Below are positions 14,930 through 35,524 of a stretch of 64,000 bases of DNA, one piece after another; position 1 is the stretch's first letter, and the number at the start of each line of letters is the position of its first letter. A model generated the notes under the pieces. It was given only the letters and a program-made list of their open reading frames with translations. It made no database searches and was not told where the DNA came from. The translations under genes and the position numbers were made by a program. The stretch spans positions 1-64,000 of the IMG/VR virus record IMGVR_UViG_3300037246_001555. One strand, 5' to 3'. The DNA is from a virus.

Positions 14930-17900
14930 TTGTCCATAACGACGATTATTCAGTCTGATATAGAATCGCGGGATAATGACTATATAGGTCTTGCCTCAAA
15001 TAATACTGACGCTGAAGAAATAAATTTGGTGGTTGGTGACGTATTTTTAGGTATTCAATCGAGTTTCTTGTGTGGGTTCAATAACGCTGTTGTGCCTCCA
15101 AATTCGGAGATTACCTCTGCTGTTTGTGATTTCTTTACTGACCCGTTGTTTGGTCCTCCACAAACTGGGGCGATAACGTGCGATATTAAAGCACCTGACC
15201 GTGAGGCCGGCAGCGATGATGGTAGCCTCAAATATTTTCCGTTCTACGGCCGCGATACCGAGGTGGGTATAGGATGGCGATTTCACGGCAGCGATACATT
15301 TCATGTTCATGTTAAGTCAGATGTAGGAGGTACGATTGCTGATACTACAGGAGTTGCTACAACCAGATCTGACCCTGTAGCACAAACCTCCGGTATTAAT
15401 GAAGTAGCTCAGAAATTTACTGTAGGTACTAGCGTAACTTTAGGATCGGTAGATTTGACACTTGCTAGGGTAGGGACTGGCGGTGGAAATTGGCAAGCGT
15501 CCATAGTGGCTCCCCTATCGTCACCGTCTGACGGATCTATTCCTGGCAATCAGAACGCCACAGTATTTGTTAGGCCTAATTTAGCTATATCTGATGTTGT
15601 TGTAGGCTCTACTATTTCTACCTCTGAAACGGTTGTTACATTCAGCTTCAGCGGTGACGAGCAAGTAACTCTTCCAGCAGGCGACTATTATGTTAGGTTG
15701 TTCAAGAGTGACGGAGACGTTACTGACTCTTCTAACTATTTGAACACGTATCTTAACCGTACTTTTCTTGGCTCGGCAGGTATGAGGCATACTGCGAACG
15801 TGGTTGGATTGGGGAAATTCAACTACCCGGTTGACGCTGATATACTTGTCGCAGCTCGAACTTTTGAGCTTTCCACTAGCGTTGCTTGGGTGATGCCCGA
15901 CCCTATGAATCAGCTTACACGGCATTCAACTCCTAGCTTGGCCGTTCTCGTACAGGAAATCGTAGACGACCCGGGATATATTCAAGGTAATCACATTGCT
16001 TTAAACTTCACGGCTACAGGCGAGACCAATAAGAGATCGCTTATCGCATTTATAGCTGCGATACCTGCGCTTGGACCTAGACTTCACATAACCTATAAGC
16101 CCGCGCCCACGATTACCTTAAATCTAGGGTCAATCTCACAGGGCGTTACGGTTAACATGAACGGGTTCATATCTGCGGATAGTATTGAACCAGCACAAGA
16201 CGATGCAGACCTTGTGCTTGATGTTACGGGCGTAACTGCTGGACAATTTGAGTTGACTACAGACTCCGGCACGGCTATTACACAGTTTACGCAGGGCCAG
16301 ATTGATAGCAGCCTGGTTGTGTTTGTTCCTGATGGTACAAACGTAACGCCAGCATGGTCTGTGCAGGCCACCGACGACATTCCGCTGAAGTCGAATGTGA
16401 TACCTGCTATCGTGATTTTTACAGCCCTGGACCCATCGCTCGACGTCAATCAACTGACTCTCATTCGAGCTGCGACCGTCTCGATTACTGCTGCTGAGAT
16501 GCTGGCCTCTGACACAGGACAAGATGACGCTGATCTGATATTTACTGTATCATCTGTTACAGGAGGTCAGTTCGAACGAGTAAGTGCTTCGGGTATTGAG
16601 ATTACTACGTGGACACAGTCAGAGGTAACTGCCAATGACATAGTGTTCATTGATGACGGTAACGTGACCGCGCCGTCTTACGATCTGTCTGTAACGAATA
16701 ATGCTAGCTTGTTTGACGGCCCTGACGCTGCTACTATTACTTTTACGGCTCCACTGCCGGTAATCAGTACCAACCAACTAACGCTAGTCCGTGCTGAAAC
16801 AGTTCTGATTACTGCTGCTGAAATGCAGGCTAGTGATCTAGCTCAAAGCAACTCTACTCTGGTATTTACCGTTTCGAGTGTTTCCGGGGGGCAATTCGAA
16901 AGAGTTAGCGCCCCCAGTGTTGCGATCACTACGTGGAATCAATCCGAAGTCACGGCCAGCGACATCGTCTTTATTGACAATGATGATGCTACCGCTCCTT
17001 CGTATGACTTACTGATCACAAATGATGCCAGCCAAACTGACGGTCCTGATGCGGCTACGATTACTTTCACTACTGGACCGACCCTTGTAACCAATCAGCT
17101 AACGCTCACGCAAGGACAGACGGTTGGCCTTACGTCCAACGTTATGCGGGCGACGGCTACAGACGCAGATCAGGACGAAGGCGATCTGATCTTTACGATC
17201 TCATCGCTAACTAACGGACAGTTCCAGAGGCTGAGCGCGCCCGGCATTGTGATTACTACGTGGACACAGTCCGAGGTTACGGCCGGGGACATTGTGTTCA
17301 TTGACGATGATGATCGTATAGCACCTGCCTACGATCTGTCTGTTACGAATGACGAGAGCGTCTCAGACGGCCCGTTCGCGGCTACCATCACCTTCTCGTT
17401 TAGGCGTTGGACTGAGGTTGCAGGACCTTCTCGGGTAGATAAGTACGAATGGCGCCTACCCAACAACGATCAGTTGCATGTGGAACAGACTGTGGGTCCG
17501 GGTGACTTGTTGATCAAGCCTGAGGACATTTCCCTCAAGCCTACTAAGTCACCCAAACGCTCAGGCATACAGCACGGACAGGACGACTGGGACTTTGATC
17601 CCATACCGGTTACGAGATGGTATGTCGCATCCGAGACAGTAATGCCCGGTAGTTGGACGGATGTTGATGGGCCTACCAAGCTAGATAAGTACGAATGGCG
17701 ATTGCCAAACAACGGGGACCAGCACGGAGAACAGACAGTCGCCCCTGGAGATCTGCTGATCAAGCCAAGTCAGCTTGAGCTGGTACCAACTAAGTCGCCT
17801 AAACGCTCAGGCATACAGCACGGACAGGACGATTGGAACTTCAACACCGTACCTGATACCTCATGGTATACAGCCTCTGAACCTCTAGTAGGGGGTTGGA

Positions 17901-18139
17901 CCCGTTTTGAGGGCCCTGCAAAGGTAGACAAGTATGAGTGGCGCTTACCAGAGAACAAGGATGAGCACGTAGAACAGACAGTAGCCCCCGGCGATTTGCT
18001 CATTAAGCCTGAGGCTCTCGCTCTCAAGCCTACTAAGTCGCCTAAACGCTCAGGCATACAGCATGGCGCTGATGACTGGAATTTCACTAATGTACCCGAT
18101 ACTTCGTGGTATGCTTTCGGAATGATTGAGGATTTGTAG
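14930..18139 (+). CDS. Large tail fibre/adhesin with cadherin-like repeats and C-terminal triplicated module
   Basis: A 1069-aa protein with a TTG start behind GAGGAGAG. The N-terminal 390 residues are beta-rich with a possible receptor-binding jelly-roll region. Residues about 392-823 hold four repeats of about 105 aa resembling cadherin_3/CSPG-type repeats (F.RVSA....TTWTQSEVTA.DIVFIDD....PSYDLSVTN). Residues about 825-1064 are three copies of a 78-82 aa unit containing KYEWRLP, EQTV, PGDLLIKP and KSPKRSGIQHG with several tryptophans. No signal peptide is present, as expected for a virion protein. It is a likely host-recognition fibre. The triplicated C-terminus may trimerise or bind glycan. 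Confidence 0.8.
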   Translation: MSITTIIQSDIESRDNDYIGLASNNTDAEEINLVVGDVFLGIQSSFLCGFNNAVVPPNSEITSAVCDFFTDPLFGPPQTGAITCDIKAPDREAGSDDGSLKYFPFYGRDTEVGIGWRFHGSDTFHVHVKSDVGGTIADTTGVATTRSDPVAQTSGINEVAQKFTVGTSVTLGSVDLTLARVGTGGGNWQASIVAPLSSPSDGSIPGNQNATVFVRPNLAISDVVVGSTISTSETVVTFSFSGDEQVTLPAGDYYVRLFKSDGDVTDSSNYLNTYLNRTFLGSAGMRHTANVVGLGKFNYPVDADILVAARTFELSTSVAWVMPDPMNQLTRHSTPSLAVLVQEIVDDPGYIQGNHIALNFTATGETNKRSLIAFIAAIPALGPRLHITYKPAPTITLNLGSISQGVTVNMNGFISADSIEPAQDDADLVLDVTGVTAGQFELTTDSGTAITQFTQGQIDSSLVVFVPDGTNVTPAWSVQATDDIPLKSNVIPAIVIFTALDPSLDVNQLTLIRAATVSITAAEMLASDTGQDDADLIFTVSSVTGGQFERVSASGIEITTWTQSEVTANDIVFIDDGNVTAPSYDLSVTNNASLFDGPDAATITFTAPLPVISTNQLTLVRAETVLITAAEMQASDLAQSNSTLVFTVSSVSGGQFERVSAPSVAITTWNQSEVTASDIVFIDNDDATAPSYDLLITNDASQTDGPDAATITFTTGPTLVTNQLTLTQGQTVGLTSNVMRATATDADQDEGDLIFTISSLTNGQFQRLSAPGIVITTWTQSEVTAGDIVFIDDDDRIAPAYDLSVTNDESVSDGPFAATITFSFRRWTEVAGPSRVDKYEWRLPNNDQLHVEQTVGPGDLLIKPEDISLKPTKSPKRSGIQHGQDDWDFDPIPVTRWYVASETVMPGSWTDVDGPTKLDKYEWRLPNNGDQHGEQTVAPGDLLIKPSQLELVPTKSPKRSGIQHGQDDWNFNTVPDTSWYTASEPLVGGWTRFEGPAKVDKYEWRLPENKDEHVEQTVAPGDLLIKPEALALKPTKSPKRSGIQHGADDWNFTNVPDTSWYAFGMIEDL
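17405..18115 (+). repeat. Three tandem ~245-bp coding repeats at the 3' end of the fibre gene
   Basis: Three direct repeats encode the KYEWRLP...KSPKRSGIQHG unit. A 20-base core, AAACGCTCAGGCATACAGCA, recurs exactly at 17555, 17801 and 18044, giving periods of 246 and 243 bp. Between the cores the copies differ mainly at third codon positions. Confidence 0.9.
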
Positions 18140-28701: not shown

Positions 28702-28777
28702 GGAACCCTAACCAAGCCTTAGAGCCTCCACGCACAGTGCATGGTTGCACCTACGGTTTGATAAGGAGTTCCTAAAA

Positions 28778-29989
28778 ATGGAGACTTTTGCCACACTTGG
28801 CGATATGCTCCTACGTCGGTACGTCGTGGATTTCATCGGGCAGATGCAACAGCTTTCTTCCCCAGTCCACAGCCGACTCAAGGAGAATACGCGCTTCATC
28901 CCTTCGGGTGACGGTGCGTACTTTGCTGTCAGAATTGACGGCAATGAGTCGGGCGGCGGCTGGCGCGGCACTGACGACAACACCCTGCCCTCCGCGGGCA
29001 ACGAGCGCATCAAGCAGGCTCGCGTACGACCCAAGAAGTACTACCACACGGTTACCTTCTCTGGTCTCGCAGAGGCTGTTTCGAAGCGCGCAGGCGAAGA
29101 CGCCTTCGCCGCCGGTATCACGGACGCAATCAGTTCGGCTGTAAAGCGTGCGGGTGCCAACTTCGAGACCACGTTCCTGCGTGGCGACGGTACTGGCCGA
29201 CTCACTAACGTGAGTGGCTCCCAGGCCGCCGACACGACCATCGTGGTCGATGACTCTCGGACGATTCGTACGGGACAGGTTGTGGTGTTTCTGAACAACA
29301 CGACTGGTCTACGCCAGGCAGGCCCGGTGCAGATCACCTCGAACGACATCGCCAACGCCACGATTACGGTCAATGCGGCCGTGACCGTCACGGATAACGA
29401 CGGCGTTTACATCAGCGGTGAGCAGGATGAGGCTTCGGCCCCGTCTGAGCTGACGGCCCTCGGGCTCCCGGCGCTGGTGAACAACACCGGAACTATCTAC
29501 AACCTCTCCCGGACGACCTACCCCATCCTTCAGTCGAAGGTGATTGCGGCGGGTTCGACCAGTCTCGATGAGAGCATGCTGCGCAGACTGCGCAAGCAGC
29601 TCATGATCGAGACGGCCGTTGAGAGCCTTGAGGGCTTCGCGCTCATCTCGAATCACGATCAGTACGATCGTTACACTGAGATCGCGCTTCCCTTCCGGCG
29701 CTTCAACGACATGCGTCTGGAGCTGGGTGCTCAGCAGGAGCTGACGACCTTCGAAGGTCGCCCGTGGCTGGTCACTTGGGCCGCGCTGCCGGACGAGGTG
29801 TACTTCCTCAACCTGGGTGCCATCGAACGAGGTATCGTTCGACCTTTCGCGATTGACGAGAGGGTGAATATGGCATGGGTCCCCGGCCAGGACGCTTTCA
29901 CGGTTCTGATGAAGACCTACTGCGAGAACGTAGGCAGGTACCTCAACCAGAGTGCGAAAATCACCGGGTTGACTACGCCGACCTACTGA
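28778..29989 (+). CDS. Major capsid protein
   Basis: The ATG at 28778 follows AAGGAG; a longer frame from 28745 is not needed. The 403-aa protein has an HK97-type feel: a helical N-terminus (LGDMLLRRYVVDFIGQM), an E-loop-like strand region, HTVTFSGLAEAVSKRAGEDAFAAGI, an insertion rich in Thr/Val strands (NATITVNAAVTVTDNDGVYISG), and a C-terminal LISNHDQYDRYTEIALPFRRFNDM followed by TFEGRPWLVTWAALPDEVYFLNLGAIERG. Codon use here is noticeably richer in C and G at third positions than in neighbouring genes, fitting high expression. It follows the scaffold and is followed by a strong terminator. Confidence 0.85.
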   Translation: METFATLGDMLLRRYVVDFIGQMQQLSSPVHSRLKENTRFIPSGDGAYFAVRIDGNESGGGWRGTDDNTLPSAGNERIKQARVRPKKYYHTVTFSGLAEAVSKRAGEDAFAAGITDAISSAVKRAGANFETTFLRGDGTGRLTNVSGSQAADTTIVVDDSRTIRTGQVVVFLNNTTGLRQAGPVQITSNDIANATITVNAAVTVTDNDGVYISGEQDEASAPSELTALGLPALVNNTGTIYNLSRTTYPILQSKVIAAGSTSLDESMLRRLRKQLMIETAVESLEGFALISNHDQYDRYTEIALPFRRFNDMRLELGAQQELTTFEGRPWLVTWAALPDEVYFLNLGAIERGIVRPFAIDERVNMAWVPGQDAFTVLMKTYCENVGRYLNQSAKITGLTTPTY

Positions 29990-30019: not shown

Positions 30020-30045
30020 GCCCCTGGGGTATCAGCCCCAGGGGC
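30020..30045 (+). terminator. Hairpin terminator after the capsid gene
   Basis: A perfect 10-bp stem GCCCCTGGGG / CCCCAGGGGC with a 6-nt loop, followed by ATTCTTATACT, 31 nt after the capsid stop. Confidence 0.85.
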
Positions 30046-30070: not shown

Positions 30071-30508
30071 ATGGAATGGAAGCCTCTACACGGGTTTAAA
30101 GGCCTGTACTCTGTATCTGACACGGGACTCGTTCGTGCTGAAGCTAAAGTCATCAAACGCCCAAGCTCCACCCGTGGAAAGCTTCAACACCGGAAGCAGA
30201 AGATGATGAGGACTCCAGCTAACGGTCACGGTTACGCTTCCTTCCCTGCCACCAAAGACGGTCAACGTAAGACTGTAGATGTCCACCGCGCAGTCTATGA
30301 GGCCCATGTTCGTCCTCTGGAATCTGGAGAGCACGTACACCACGTGAATGACTGTAAGTTGGACAACCAAGTTTCAAATCTTCAAGCCATGCCCGATCTT
30401 GAGCACAAGCGCCATACTCAGCAGCGCATAAAAGACAAGATCGCAGTGGCTGACTTTCTAACTCAGATCCTAATGACCAAAGGAGCCCTAAATGTCTCTA
30501 CTCTCTGA
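30071..30508 (+). CDS. HNH homing endonuclease with NUMOD4 motif
   Basis: A 145-aa protein. The N-terminus WKPLHGFKGLYSVSDTGLVRA is a NUMOD4 DNA-recognition motif, and VDVHRAVYEAHV followed by EHVHHVNDCKLDNQVSNLQAM is an HNH nuclease centre (HH...N). It should nick or cut intron-less alleles at a cognate site and spread by repair. It lies directly behind the capsid terminator with no promoter of its own and contains the ribosome-binding site of the next gene, which it overlaps by 17 nt. It looks like an inserted mobile gene. Confidence 0.85.
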   Translation: MEWKPLHGFKGLYSVSDTGLVRAEAKVIKRPSSTRGKLQHRKQKMMRTPANGHGYASFPATKDGQRKTVDVHRAVYEAHVRPLESGEHVHHVNDCKLDNQVSNLQAMPDLEHKRHTQQRIKDKIAVADFLTQILMTKGALNVSTL

Positions 30509-30779
30509 CCACAAGTTCGAGGCCTTCGGTCGCCCCTACGGCCTCGCCCGTGTGGAGTACACAGGCGCCGCAGCCACGTTCCTCGTGGATCAATCGGCTT
30601 CTGCCGTAGCCTCCATTGAGCCCTCGTCCAGCGCCCCCGCGGCCACCATTGCATCGGGCGACTCCAACTTCGAAAAGACGGTGACCCTCGCTGCTGGTTC
30701 TCCGGCCGCGGTCGTGACCGTAGCAATCGCCTACAGTGGCGGGACCATCTCCAGCTCCAAGCCCGCCTCGCGCGCCTAG
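30492..30779 (+). CDS. Small beta-rich head protein, paralogue of the 33405 gene
   Basis: A 95-aa protein behind AAAGGAG inside the HNH gene end. It shares F-x-VDQSA and the identical DSNFEKTVT block with the 93-aa protein at 33405, in the same order and spacing, so the two genes are paralogues. Strand-rich composition without signal peptide suggests a capsid decoration protein. Its last codons and stop lie inside the left copy of the 21-bp direct repeat. Strongly GC-biased third positions resemble the capsid gene. Confidence 0.7.
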   Translation: MSLLSDHKFEAFGRPYGLARVEYTGAAATFLVDQSASAVASIEPSSSAPAATIASGDSNFEKTVTLAAGSPAAVVTVAIAYSGGTISSSKPASRA

Positions 30780-30788
30780 TAGCGCCTA
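30768..30788 (+). repeat. 21-bp direct repeat, left copy
   Basis: Exact 21-base match to 32799-32819 (both begin TCGCGCGCCTAG and end TAGCGCCTA), and after one mismatch both continue AAGG. It covers the stop of the decoration-like gene and flanks a 2.0-kb three-gene segment. Confidence 0.9.
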
Positions 30789-30792
30789 TAAG

Positions 30793-30984
30793 GTGTTCAA
30801 TCGTAGAGTAATCGCTAAACTGAATGCTAAGATTGATGAGCTTAGTGATCAACTGCTCGAAATGAGTAATAGGCTCTCAAAAAACGACAGCAAGCTCAAC
30901 AGTGCGCTAGCCGAGATACGCGGTGTACTGGCCGAGCTAGAAGATGTACGTAGCGGTAGAATTCTAAGTAACCGTAAAGGCTAA
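30793..30984 (+). CDS. Coiled-coil protein in putative inserted segment
   Basis: About 63 aa from a GTG at 30793, immediately right of the direct repeat. It forms a continuous coiled coil (LNAKIDELSDQLLEMSNRLSKNDSKLNSALAEIRGVLAELEDV). An upstream GTG at 30736 would overlap the previous gene by 44 nt and add a Pro-rich tail, so the later start is chosen. No clear ribosome-binding site is present, because the repeat junction lies where it should be. The function is unknown. Confidence 0.5.
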   Translation: MFNRRVIAKLNAKIDELSDQLLEMSNRLSKNDSKLNSALAEIRGVLAELEDVRSGRILSNRKG

Positions 30985-30987
30985 ACA

Positions 30988-31278
30988 GTGAACTACAGAG
31001 CGTCAGTCGTAACAAGGGTTACTTTAGACGCGGATAGGCAGATAGCGTCCGGCGACAGTATTGTAGTGTTCGGAATTGTTTTTTCAAACAGCACCACTCT
31101 ACCCGCAGAAATTGATGTTCTTGATGGCGCCGGCACTAAGCATATAACTGTCACGGTCCCTCCTGAAGATACTCGTATAGTTGATTTCGAGTTCATAGCA
31201 GACAGCGGACTCACGATTGACAGCCTAGGCAATGCTAACGTAGTGGCTACCGTGTTCCATAGTCAGGGCGGAAGCTAG
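30988..31278 (+). CDS. Small beta-rich protein in putative inserted segment
   Basis: A 96-aa protein with a GTG start three bases after the previous stop and a one-base overlap with the next gene. It is strand-rich (SIVVFGIVFSNSTTLPAEIDVLDGAGTKHITVTVPPEDT) and has no membrane segment. It is probably a virion surface protein. It uses more A/T-ending codons than the capsid gene, like its two neighbours inside the 30.8-32.8 kb segment. Confidence 0.6.
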   Translation: MNYRASVVTRVTLDADRQIASGDSIVVFGIVFSNSTTLPAEIDVLDGAGTKHITVTVPPEDTRIVDFEFIADSGLTIDSLGNANVVATVFHSQGGS

Positions 31279-32783
31279 TGAGCCGGTTTCTTACAACGGA
31301 CAAATCCAGTATTGGAGCCTTCGGGGATTTAAGAACCGCCGCTTTAACTCAAGAGGTCGCTATAGACTTCTCTCTTCCTCCTTCTGAGGCCTTTGTTAAT
31401 ATTGCTGCAAACAACTTAGGCTCTGTTTCTCAAGACACCACAAATAAGCTCCTTCAAGTTCAAAGTGGTGCTAGCGCGAATTCTGCTGCTTATCTTGGCA
31501 CTCGAAGGCCGGTGCAGCACTTTCCCGGCCAGGGAGGGCTCGTACGATTTTCAGGCATCTTCACCGCCGGAGTCGTTGGAAACGTACAACTGATTGGATT
31601 AGGCAACGAGTCAGACGGGCTTTTCTTCAGTTATAACGGGGTTGATTTTGGAGTGCTTCGTAGGACTGGTGGGAGTTTTGAGGTCCAACAACTCGTAGTC
31701 TCCAACGGCGCGGATAACAATGCAGGTACACTTACTATCACGCTGAATGGCAATGCTAAAGAAGTAGAAGTAGAGAATGCAGATACCGCTAGAGAAGTAG
31801 CCGAAGCCATCGCCGCTACAGACTTCAGTGACGTTGGAGATGGGTGGTTAACGTCCATATTTGATGAGACAGTAGAGTTCATCTCGTACAATTCTGAAGT
31901 TAAGGGAGGGGCCTTTTCTTTTGCGGACACCGACTCTACAGCCTCAGCCGCCTCGTTTTCTCAGGCCGTGGCCGGAGTAGCCCCGACAGAAGAGTTTATT
32001 GCTCAAGCCTCGTGGTCTGACGACGCGATGGATGGAGCGGGGGCGACTGCTATGACCCTCGATCCTACAAAAGGAAACGTGTTCGAAATACAGTACCAGT
32101 GGCTGGGTTTCGGAATGATCAAGTTCTTTATTGAAGAACAGAACACTGGCGACTTTGCTTTGGTTCATAAGATTAGCTACGCGAACCAGAATACGGCGCC
32201 TAGTCTTTCTAATCCGACACTACCTTTGTGTGTTTCTTCTGTGAACACTTCTAACACCTCAAACGTGACAGTTAAATCAGGCTCTATGGCGGGATTTACG
32301 GAGGGCATAGACCGCGGAGCTGCAAACGCATTTTTCGCAGCCCAAGGAGCAAAGAACGTTACTTCTGCTTCTGAGGCCCCTATACTTACTCTTAGCTCTA
32401 AGTTGATATTCCAAGGCAGCGTTAACCCTGTAGTAAGCATACCCCAAAATGTGAATTTCTCAGCGTCTGGCTTGAGTAATAAGCAGATTTGTGAGTTCAG
32501 GATATATAGGGGGGCTTCTCTGACCGGACCTGTTGCGTATACCGACGTAAATACTAATTTCTCTGTAACTCGCTTTGACACAGCAGCTACAGGATTCTCC
32601 GGCGGCCTGTTTCTCTTGGCTACGGAGGTGGCAAACAATGTTTCGGTGAATGTAGACCTTGCAACCTTATTTGGAGCTAGCTGGTTCAGGGGAGAAAGCA
32701 TCACGATCACTACTACTATTGTAGGCGGCGGTGCTATAGATATGGAAGCAGCAGTCTCTTTTACGTGGGTAGAAAGCTTCTAA
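31278..32783 (+). CDS. Large beta-rich virion protein in putative inserted segment
   Basis: A 501-aa protein with a GTG start overlapping the preceding stop. It contains a block known from scattered phage structural proteins: LIGLGNESDGLFFSYNGVDFGVLRRTGG, then TLTITLNGNAKEVEVENADTAREVAEAI and NVFEIQYQWLGFGMIKFFIEEQNTGDF. A lectin-like (LamG-type) core with an inserted domain fits this pattern. It may be a head fibre or capsid surface adhesin. It ends 16 nt before the right copy of the 21-bp repeat. Confidence 0.65.
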   Translation: MSRFLTTDKSSIGAFGDLRTAALTQEVAIDFSLPPSEAFVNIAANNLGSVSQDTTNKLLQVQSGASANSAAYLGTRRPVQHFPGQGGLVRFSGIFTAGVVGNVQLIGLGNESDGLFFSYNGVDFGVLRRTGGSFEVQQLVVSNGADNNAGTLTITLNGNAKEVEVENADTAREVAEAIAATDFSDVGDGWLTSIFDETVEFISYNSEVKGGAFSFADTDSTASAASFSQAVAGVAPTEEFIAQASWSDDAMDGAGATAMTLDPTKGNVFEIQYQWLGFGMIKFFIEEQNTGDFALVHKISYANQNTAPSLSNPTLPLCVSSVNTSNTSNVTVKSGSMAGFTEGIDRGAANAFFAAQGAKNVTSASEAPILTLSSKLIFQGSVNPVVSIPQNVNFSASGLSNKQICEFRIYRGASLTGPVAYTDVNTNFSVTRFDTAATGFSGGLFLLATEVANNVSVNVDLATLFGASWFRGESITITTTIVGGGAIDMEAAVSFTWVESF

Positions 32784-32798
32784 ATTCCTAAACCGTTT

Positions 32799-32819
32799 TC
32801 GCGCGCCTAGTAGCGCCTA
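32799..32819 (+). repeat. 21-bp direct repeat, right copy
   Basis: Right partner of the repeat at 30768. Here it is non-coding and is followed by GAAGGAGTCAACC, which supplies the ribosome-binding site of the gene at 32833. The two copies are 2031 bp apart. Confidence 0.9.
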
Positions 32820-32832
32820 GAAGGAGTCAACC

Positions 32833-33105
32833 TTGTCCCAAATCCTATCGCAAAAGATTCAATCGGTGCGCCGAGGGAGTAGCTCTGTGGCCGCCACAGT
32901 AGTCAAGCTTACCACGCGGTCCGATTCCGTAGAAGTGCCGAGAATGGCTGCAACTGCGAACACCGCCGCGCAACTCCGACGCCCCGGTGACAACGTTGTC
33001 ACGGTGAGTATCACTGACATTGATACTGTTGCTTTGACGGGAAATGTCGGTGATGAGGTCCTACTCGTCACCCTTCATGATGACCCCGTTCCGGAGCTGA
33101 GGTAA
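32833..33105 (+). CDS. Small beta-rich head protein, similar to the 34662 gene
   Basis: A 90-aa protein with a TTG start behind AAGGAG. It shares RSDSVEVP, NVVTVS and GDEVLLVTLH with SSDTVTVP, NVVTVA and GSEVVLFTLH in the 110-aa protein at 34662, so the two look paralogous. The content is beta strands. It is one of a run of small decoration-like proteins downstream of the capsid gene and is separated from the 30492 gene only by the putative insertion. Confidence 0.65.
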   Translation: MSQILSQKIQSVRRGSSSVAATVVKLTTRSDSVEVPRMAATANTAAQLRRPGDNVVTVSITDIDTVALTGNVGDEVLLVTLHDDPVPELR

Positions 33106-35078: not shown

Positions 35079-35140
35079 AACAATTGGAGATTGCTGACCC
35101 CCGTTGGAGGGAAGGACTCTTCGCTGAGAAGGAGAATCCA

Positions 35141-35524
35141 ATGGCGCATGACGTTAAGATTCGTTTCAAGTCGTTCCTGCCGGGTGGCGGGTACGACAGT
35201 TCCGGAAACCCCGTGCAGGGTAAGACGCGCGTAGTCGGCATCGTTGATGTGACTTCGTATGACGGCGAAGAGGGTGATCAGTTCGACGCCCGCTCCGTTG
35301 GTCTCACCAACATCGACGCCTTGACCCTTCGTGTCCGGGACCAGATGGACGGATCGTTCCCTGGTGCAAAGAATCGTGACTGCCTGTACTCGCAGAGTAC
35401 CGGTCACTTCTACCTGCTCACTCGCGTTGCCACTGGCGTGGCTCTGGGTGTGGTTGCAGGAAGCACCGAGACGCTGGAGTTCGACGCTTTCGGCGACAGT
35501 GTTGCGGACGTGGAGCTGACCTAG
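35141..35524 (+). CDS. Abundant small virion protein (probable capsid decoration)
   Basis: The ATG at 35141 follows AAGGAGA; the frame upstream to 35084 has no site. The 127-aa protein is strand-rich (KTRVVGIVDVTSYDGEEGDQF, IDALTLRVRDQMDGSFPGAK, HFYLLTRVATGVALGVVAGSTE). It stands alone between its own promoter and a strong terminator and has C/G-ending codons like the capsid gene, so high-level expression is likely. This suggests a major decoration or tail protein. Confidence 0.7.
   Translation: MAHDVKIRFKSFLPGGGYDSSGNPVQGKTRVVGIVDVTSYDGEEGDQFDARSVGLTNIDALTLRVRDQMDGSFPGAKNRDCLYSQSTGHFYLLTRVATGVALGVVAGSTETLEFDAFGDSVADVELT

Follow-up and report, generated by a model that had tools for sequence, protein, structure and literature searches.

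The locus lies in the late operon of a phage of the podovirus type (short-tailed), and was studied within a window of 64,000 nucleotides, the first part of an 87,489-bp metagenomic virus record. Along the forward strand the order is the major capsid protein (MCP) gene, a terminator-like hairpin, an HNH homing-endonuclease gene, decA, the three genes cc, g96 and g501, and then g90, a gene for a 96-aa protein, decB and further small genes (Table 1). The gaps between genes in this cluster range from -1 to 13 bp with one exception: 49 bp separate g501 from g90, where the three-gene segment ends on the right. An earlier note on this DNA, made from the letters alone, described the segment as a block bounded by a direct repeat but left out the HNH gene upstream of it. 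Both HNH_3 and NUMOD4 score above their cut-offs in that gene, which lies outside introns and beside an essential gene, as a free-standing HNH endonuclease does. The decA protein has a C-terminal tail extended by the residues ASRA, the last three of which (SRA) the repeat encodes; the tail is disordered in the model, and it is unusual since other members of the family end at or near K-P. A fold search with decA gave no significant match, and the label of decoration protein is therefore a putative one. For cc, the most likely start of the frame is the GTG at 30793 rather than the position 30736.

Table 1. Features of the locus and sites of an 18-bp motif, in window coordinates
Feature	Position	Strand	Remarks
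AACGGYATTATTTACTAG sites	13835, 14711, 59410	-	Same strand as, and upstream of, the following gene
AACGGYATTATTTACTAG sites	14793, 20358, 27618, 35017, 41601	+	Same strand as, and upstream of, the following gene
MCP gene	28745..29989	+	Left anchor of the exchange site
Terminator-like hairpin 3′ of MCP	30020..30045	+	-31.8 kcal/mol, z -5.4
Free-standing HNH homing-endonuclease gene	30071..30508	+	NUMOD4 + HNH_3; overlaps the start of decA by 17 bp
decA, 95-aa small beta protein	30492..30779	+	Relative of decB (43%)
Left repeat copy TCGCGCGCCTAGTAGCGCCTA	30768..30788	+	Last codons of decA (S-R-A-stop), then spacer up to AAGG
cc, predicted 63-aa coiled-coil protein	30793..30984	+	GTG start, uncertain
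g96, 96-aa small virion-type protein	30988..31278	+	Relatives in L002-L006, L123 and L061
g501, 501-aa predicted virion structural protein	31278..32783	+	phrog_1645 family; confident all-beta model
Right repeat copy TCGCGCGCCTAGTAGCGCCTA	32799..32819	+	Followed by GAAGGAG, the ribosome-binding site of g90
g90, small virion-operon gene	32833..33105	+	Right flank; directly 3′ of the MCP hairpin in L001 and L023

The 21-bp sequence TCGCGCGCCTAGTAGCGCCTA occurs exactly twice in the 87,489-bp record, with the copies 2,031 bp apart, and no third site within 3 mismatches of it was found in the whole record. Past the 21 identical bases there is one mismatch (T/G) and then AAGG in both copies, so that overall 27 of 29 bp match; this agrees with the earlier description of the repeat, which had however placed the end of the decoration-like gene outside the left copy, whereas that copy encodes the last codons of decA. 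The chance level was estimated by Markov simulations of the window. Repeats of at least 21 bp appeared in 0 of 150 runs (order 2; order 5), and the same order-2 and order-5 windows held no repeats of at least 18 bp spaced within 2.5 kb, while a smaller set of order 3 gave a repeat as long as 20 bp in one of its 60 runs. The TCGCGCGCCTAGTAGCGCCTA pair thus exceeds chance expectation. It may be noted that a lone repeat would be unremarkable here, because the window has further long repeats (32-bp ones within a tail-protein gene, and promoter-like motifs of 21 bp); it is the position of the copies, exactly at the two limits of a three-gene block that differs in composition, that is extraordinary. 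Similarity does not extend significantly upstream past the 21 bp, where it stays at background level (as many as 61 of 400 randomly chosen places do equally well), and downstream of the core it is weakly above chance (12/400), as expected for a ribosome-binding site.

On joining the flanks across the repeat, we obtain intact decA and g90 genes separated by a 22-bp spacer that contains GAAGGAG. The predicted empty junction reads decA...AAGCCCGCC-TCGCGCGCCTAGTAGCGCCTA-GAAGGAGTCAACC-g90, and therefore an excised form or a form preceding insertion would spare both flanking genes.

The GC fraction of the segment (0.44-0.49) differs from that of its surroundings. For synonymous G+C at the third position the segment gives z = -5.4 against +7.0 for MCP and +4.1 for decA, which bears out the earlier remark that the enclosed genes are richer than their neighbours in codons ending in A or T. 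The G/C-ending bias of MCP and decA is of a kind that highly expressed genes may show. The codon bias is not diagnostic, because one tail-protein gene (14930-18139) goes further in the same direction (z = -7.1, the lowest synonymous G+C among the late genes tested). The codon usage of the segment agrees with a foreign origin and serves as supporting evidence only.

Relatives of the phage were collected from viral contigs through the MCP, giving 27 records, many of which are fragments. The closest two, L001 and L023, have MCP proteins 93-94% identical to ours (85% and 76% at the level of MCP DNA), and in both of them g90 comes directly after the MCP hairpin, without HNH, decA, cc, g96 or g501. 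None of these 27 records, among which fragments are frequent, has a phrog_1645 protein, and a search of them for the 21-bp repeat gave nothing beyond chance-level matches. Relatives that had the segment in every case but no repeat would have spoken against an insertion; what is observed is the reverse. The segment outlined in the earlier note is indeed absent from the relatives, but the missing block is larger than that note had it and includes HNH and decA. Since these two genes are also absent from the nearest relatives, the insertion may have happened as a single larger event or in several steps. A scan for decA relatives, aimed at an empty site with decA directly before g90, returned none, and as no relative with that arrangement was found the state before insertion is not seen. 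Searching the phage collection at the DNA level also turned up no relatives of the region.

The MCP hairpin is kept in 10 of 10 relatives examined and everything past it varies. Among 22 relatives whose records extend 500 bp or more past the MCP, 8 have a homing nuclease just 3′ of it (L002, L008, L009, L012, L017, L019, L020 and L025, with L019 and L020 being near duplicates that are both counted). In 7 of these 8 the nuclease is the first gene and is of the type HNH_3 + NUMOD4, HNH_3 alone, or zinc-type HNH/HNH_5; in the remaining one (L017) two short frames come before a GIY-YIG gene. Therefore the region 3′ of MCP is a recurrent landing or exchange site, and the three-gene cassette sits in the late operon within the larger variable block that follows the hairpin. 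Homing-endonuclease genes (HEGs) at exchange boundaries have been described generally, and the site here is in line with that survey (PMC10448857). Small virion genes elsewhere in the operon also expand and contract, as seen from the gene at 35084-35524, which has two or three tandem paralogs in several relatives (L009, L012). Also, a 119,592-bp contig (L120) in a Deltaproteobacteria metagenome-assembled genome carries a relative of the MCP at 77%, and the phage contigs L020 and L025 are of about 119.5 kb; this contig is probably a phage genome binned with the bacterial one, and gives a weak hint at the host.

Within the segment, g501 is the most informative gene. It matches the PHROG profile phrog_1645 with E = 5e-33 in two stretches (31299-31664 and 31980-32663) that together take in most of the protein, which places it in that family. 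A single-sequence scan for relatives of g501 found none; an alignment-based scan recovered them in more than 420 viral contigs. An alignment of the family has 39 members. One relative, in an uncultured phage of 485 kb, has 37% identity, and those in Kyanoviridae lie between the small and large terminase genes and are 26-27% identical in the alignment. The AlphaFold2 model of g501 is all-beta (pLDDT 89.8, pTM 0.85). Over the full length its fold is matched by uncharacterised proteins from tailed phages and haloarchaeal tailed viruses, as well as by a protein of Bodo saltans virus (26% identity, TM 0.88 by the query, full length) and by one of Mimivirus (AB-566-O17; 22%, TM 0.81, full length). 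These last two suggest that the beta protein family spans phages and giant viruses. Against the PDB only partial matches to lectin-like domains were obtained, with TM to the target of at most 0.53 and an rmsd of at least 11 Å. A fold match to a protein of Haloferax tailed virus 1 had suggested a capsid turret, an idea that was dropped because the published turret proteins of that virus are a base protein and a deacetylase-like head protein.

Elsewhere, g96 has relatives in three kinds of place. In L002-L006 they precede the portal gene; on the contig of L023 one closes the virion operon (L123:2992-3273, about 18 kb from the MCP gene); and in L061 two tandem g96-like copies directly precede a relative of g501. 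Since g96-like genes stand before that g501 relative and at other positions also, the genes appear to be mobile, and g96 and g501 seem, from their neighbourhoods, to travel as a pair at least sometimes. The small gene that precedes the Kyanoviridae relatives of g501 was considered as a homolog of g96 and rejected when the sequences were read and found dissimilar. For cc, no homologs or only chance-level ones were found among phages, at g501 loci and in nine relatives. Judging by family annotation and similarity of fold, g501 and g96 are probably displayed on the particle, and g501 may perhaps bind glycans of the host surface.

We think it reasonably probable that cc-g96-g501 is a virion cassette acquired horizontally and inserted by recombination at the decA/g90 junction, where it left a footprint of 21 bp. 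The segment has the marks of an insertion between short direct repeats, namely identical repeats at its ends, absence in relatives and an intact predicted empty site, and g501 looks imported because it is found beside g96 relatives in an unrelated phage. The main part of the proposal in the earlier note, insertion by recombination between short repeats, is supported by the absence from relatives, the presence of the family elsewhere, the 49-bp gap on the right and the intact decA-g90 junction obtained on joining the flanks. In such a course of events, breaks and their repair at the locus, or recombination at short homologies, would admit foreign DNA; HNH homing nucleases could start the breaks, and the recombination proteins encoded by the phage (UvsX-like, SbcC-like, SbcD-like, SSB and a helicase) would repair them. 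Functions of these kinds are used in T4 homing and repair (PMC2988022). The cassette would then join at the decA/g90 junction with junction sequence left on both sides, the footprint being made up of decA's final codons together with the spacer that leads to the ribosome-binding site of g90. Once in place, g501, as a lectin-like beta protein, would probably be carried on the particle with g96, and might bind host glycans, while the repeat would expose the block to exact deletion, by which it would be lost passively rather than switched under regulation. That the HNH gene lies outside the repeat-bounded segment counts against this account. A wider reading, by which the site downstream of MCP is a docking site driven by homing nucleases where head-protein cassettes are exchanged and can be dropped cleanly, with mixed surface coats being kept, is in our opinion decidedly doubtful.

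As to how the repeat arose, the strongest competing explanation is the replacement of a gene body, in which a second dec gene once stood before g90 and the right copy is its surviving tail, the 21 bp being shared by tandem paralogs. Read in the frame of decA, the bases leading into the right copy give K-P-F-S-R-A-stop against K-P-A-S-R-A-stop in decA itself; decB ends in K-P too, with the codons AAA CCG that are identical to those at the right copy, K-P occurs at a given in-frame position in only 0.16% of positions, and the paralogs decA and decB already coexist in the operon. Yet the K-P match at the right copy was noticed after the fact, the nucleotide similarity upstream of the 21 bp is at background, and an old paralog tail should have scattered changes, not 21 perfect bases beside a 4/9 match. 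We regard this origin as unlikely. The two copies could also be a re-used translation-signal element (stop, spacer and ribosome-binding site), copied or converged and unrelated to the arrival of the segment, given that both end a reading frame and lead into AAGG before a start codon, with the downstream similarity weakly above chance. But 21 exact bases including three codons of decA go far beyond the needs of a ribosome-binding site, and no other junction has a third copy of the 21-mer, which makes this very unlikely. An artefact, with the block wrongly joined at a shared 21-mer during metagenome assembly, would suit a metagenomic record whose arrangement was found in no second genome among the viral contigs and whose repeat length of 21 is a common assembler k-mer size; as the assembler would need both joins to be present in the reads, and as the spacing and orientation of the block fit the operon, we give it hardly any credence. 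A transposon or insertion sequence with target-site duplication was rejected, as the segment has only cc, g96 and g501, no transposase match was found and the 21-bp copies are direct.

The earlier note had gone on to suggest, as an alternative, that looping out of the segment could turn a surface protein on and off. For such regulated excision or phase variation, with the repeats as recombination sites and the segment removed and restored, it may be said that the repeats are perfect, that the excision product preserves the frames, and that a tyrosine integrase gene exists elsewhere in the genome (13879-14697). But no recombinase gene lies in or adjoining the segment. The integrase is 16 kb off and on the other strand, and an integrase-site explanation was discarded since the 21-mer is absent near that gene and elsewhere within 3 mismatches. 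Also the repeats are direct and not inverted, so that looping out of a packaged phage genome would be a loss and not a switch; no inversion site was found at the segment. No excised or circular form was present in the viral contigs searched, and an exact scan of 2.9 million viral contigs with the central 19 bases of the repeat gave no match. With no linked recombinase, no excised form in the collections and a deletion that would be irreversible, the switching idea is unsupported and we consider it highly improbable. A one-way loss, by deletion between the repeats during phage recombination that restores a clean decA-g90 junction, is plausible, and so are rare deletants, given that genes for UvsX, SbcCD-like, SSB and helicase proteins are present in the phage.

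Some other elements of the record were noted. The 18-bp motif AACGGYATTATTTACTAG has 8 occurrences in the window, against 0 expected, and 2 more in the rest of the record, with variants at matching places in L023, L014, L010 and L009. It is a candidate for a phage-specific promoter, judged by its placement; the segment has none of its own. The tail-type protein gene at 14930-18139 has 32-bp direct repeats at a spacing of about 245 bp near its 3′ end (17436-18064). Two more HNH genes are present in the phage record (52681-53256 and L119:10931-11539), one of them with a weak AP2 match.

On comparing the locus with known systems, the family of g501 has full-length relatives in Kyanoviridae, where it is annotated as a virion structural protein, and in many environmental phages; here it is only about 27-45% identical to these, and its gene follows MCP in a genome of the podovirus type, with unrelated small virion genes on either side. 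As in HEG islands (PMC10448857) and with the free-standing HEGs of T4 (PMC2988022), an HNH/NUMOD4 HEG lies beside MCP, several HEG types occupy the same place in relatives, and recombination genes of the T4 kind are present. The island here differs from those of the survey (PMC10448857) in having one predicted HEG, on one side only, and in its size of about 2.8 kb as against more than 10 kb. The PeSL cassettes of T4-type phages, as they are cited in PMC4503421 (Arbiol 2010), represent modular gene exchange bounded by short sequences. They resemble our locus, as far as that citation describes them, in that gene content changes just downstream of a conserved hairpin; they differ, on the same description, in that no early promoter is seen at the boundary here, which instead has a hairpin and a 21-bp repeat of coding and spacer sequence. 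In cyanophage S-PM2 the spontaneous loss of an accessory block has been ascribed to mispackaging, with no repeats (PMC4503421). Both cases have an accessory block that can be lost as one piece, but here the loss is only predicted and repeats are present.

Taken as a whole, the locus is a case of ordinary phage mosaicism, in which a genuine and well-defined insertion footprint lies beside a homing-nuclease hot spot. Mosaic gene exchange is well known already as a principle. If our reading is right, the locus would be a clear small example of the gain of surface-protein genes beside a homing-nuclease hot spot, with boundaries that can be read at the level of single bases.
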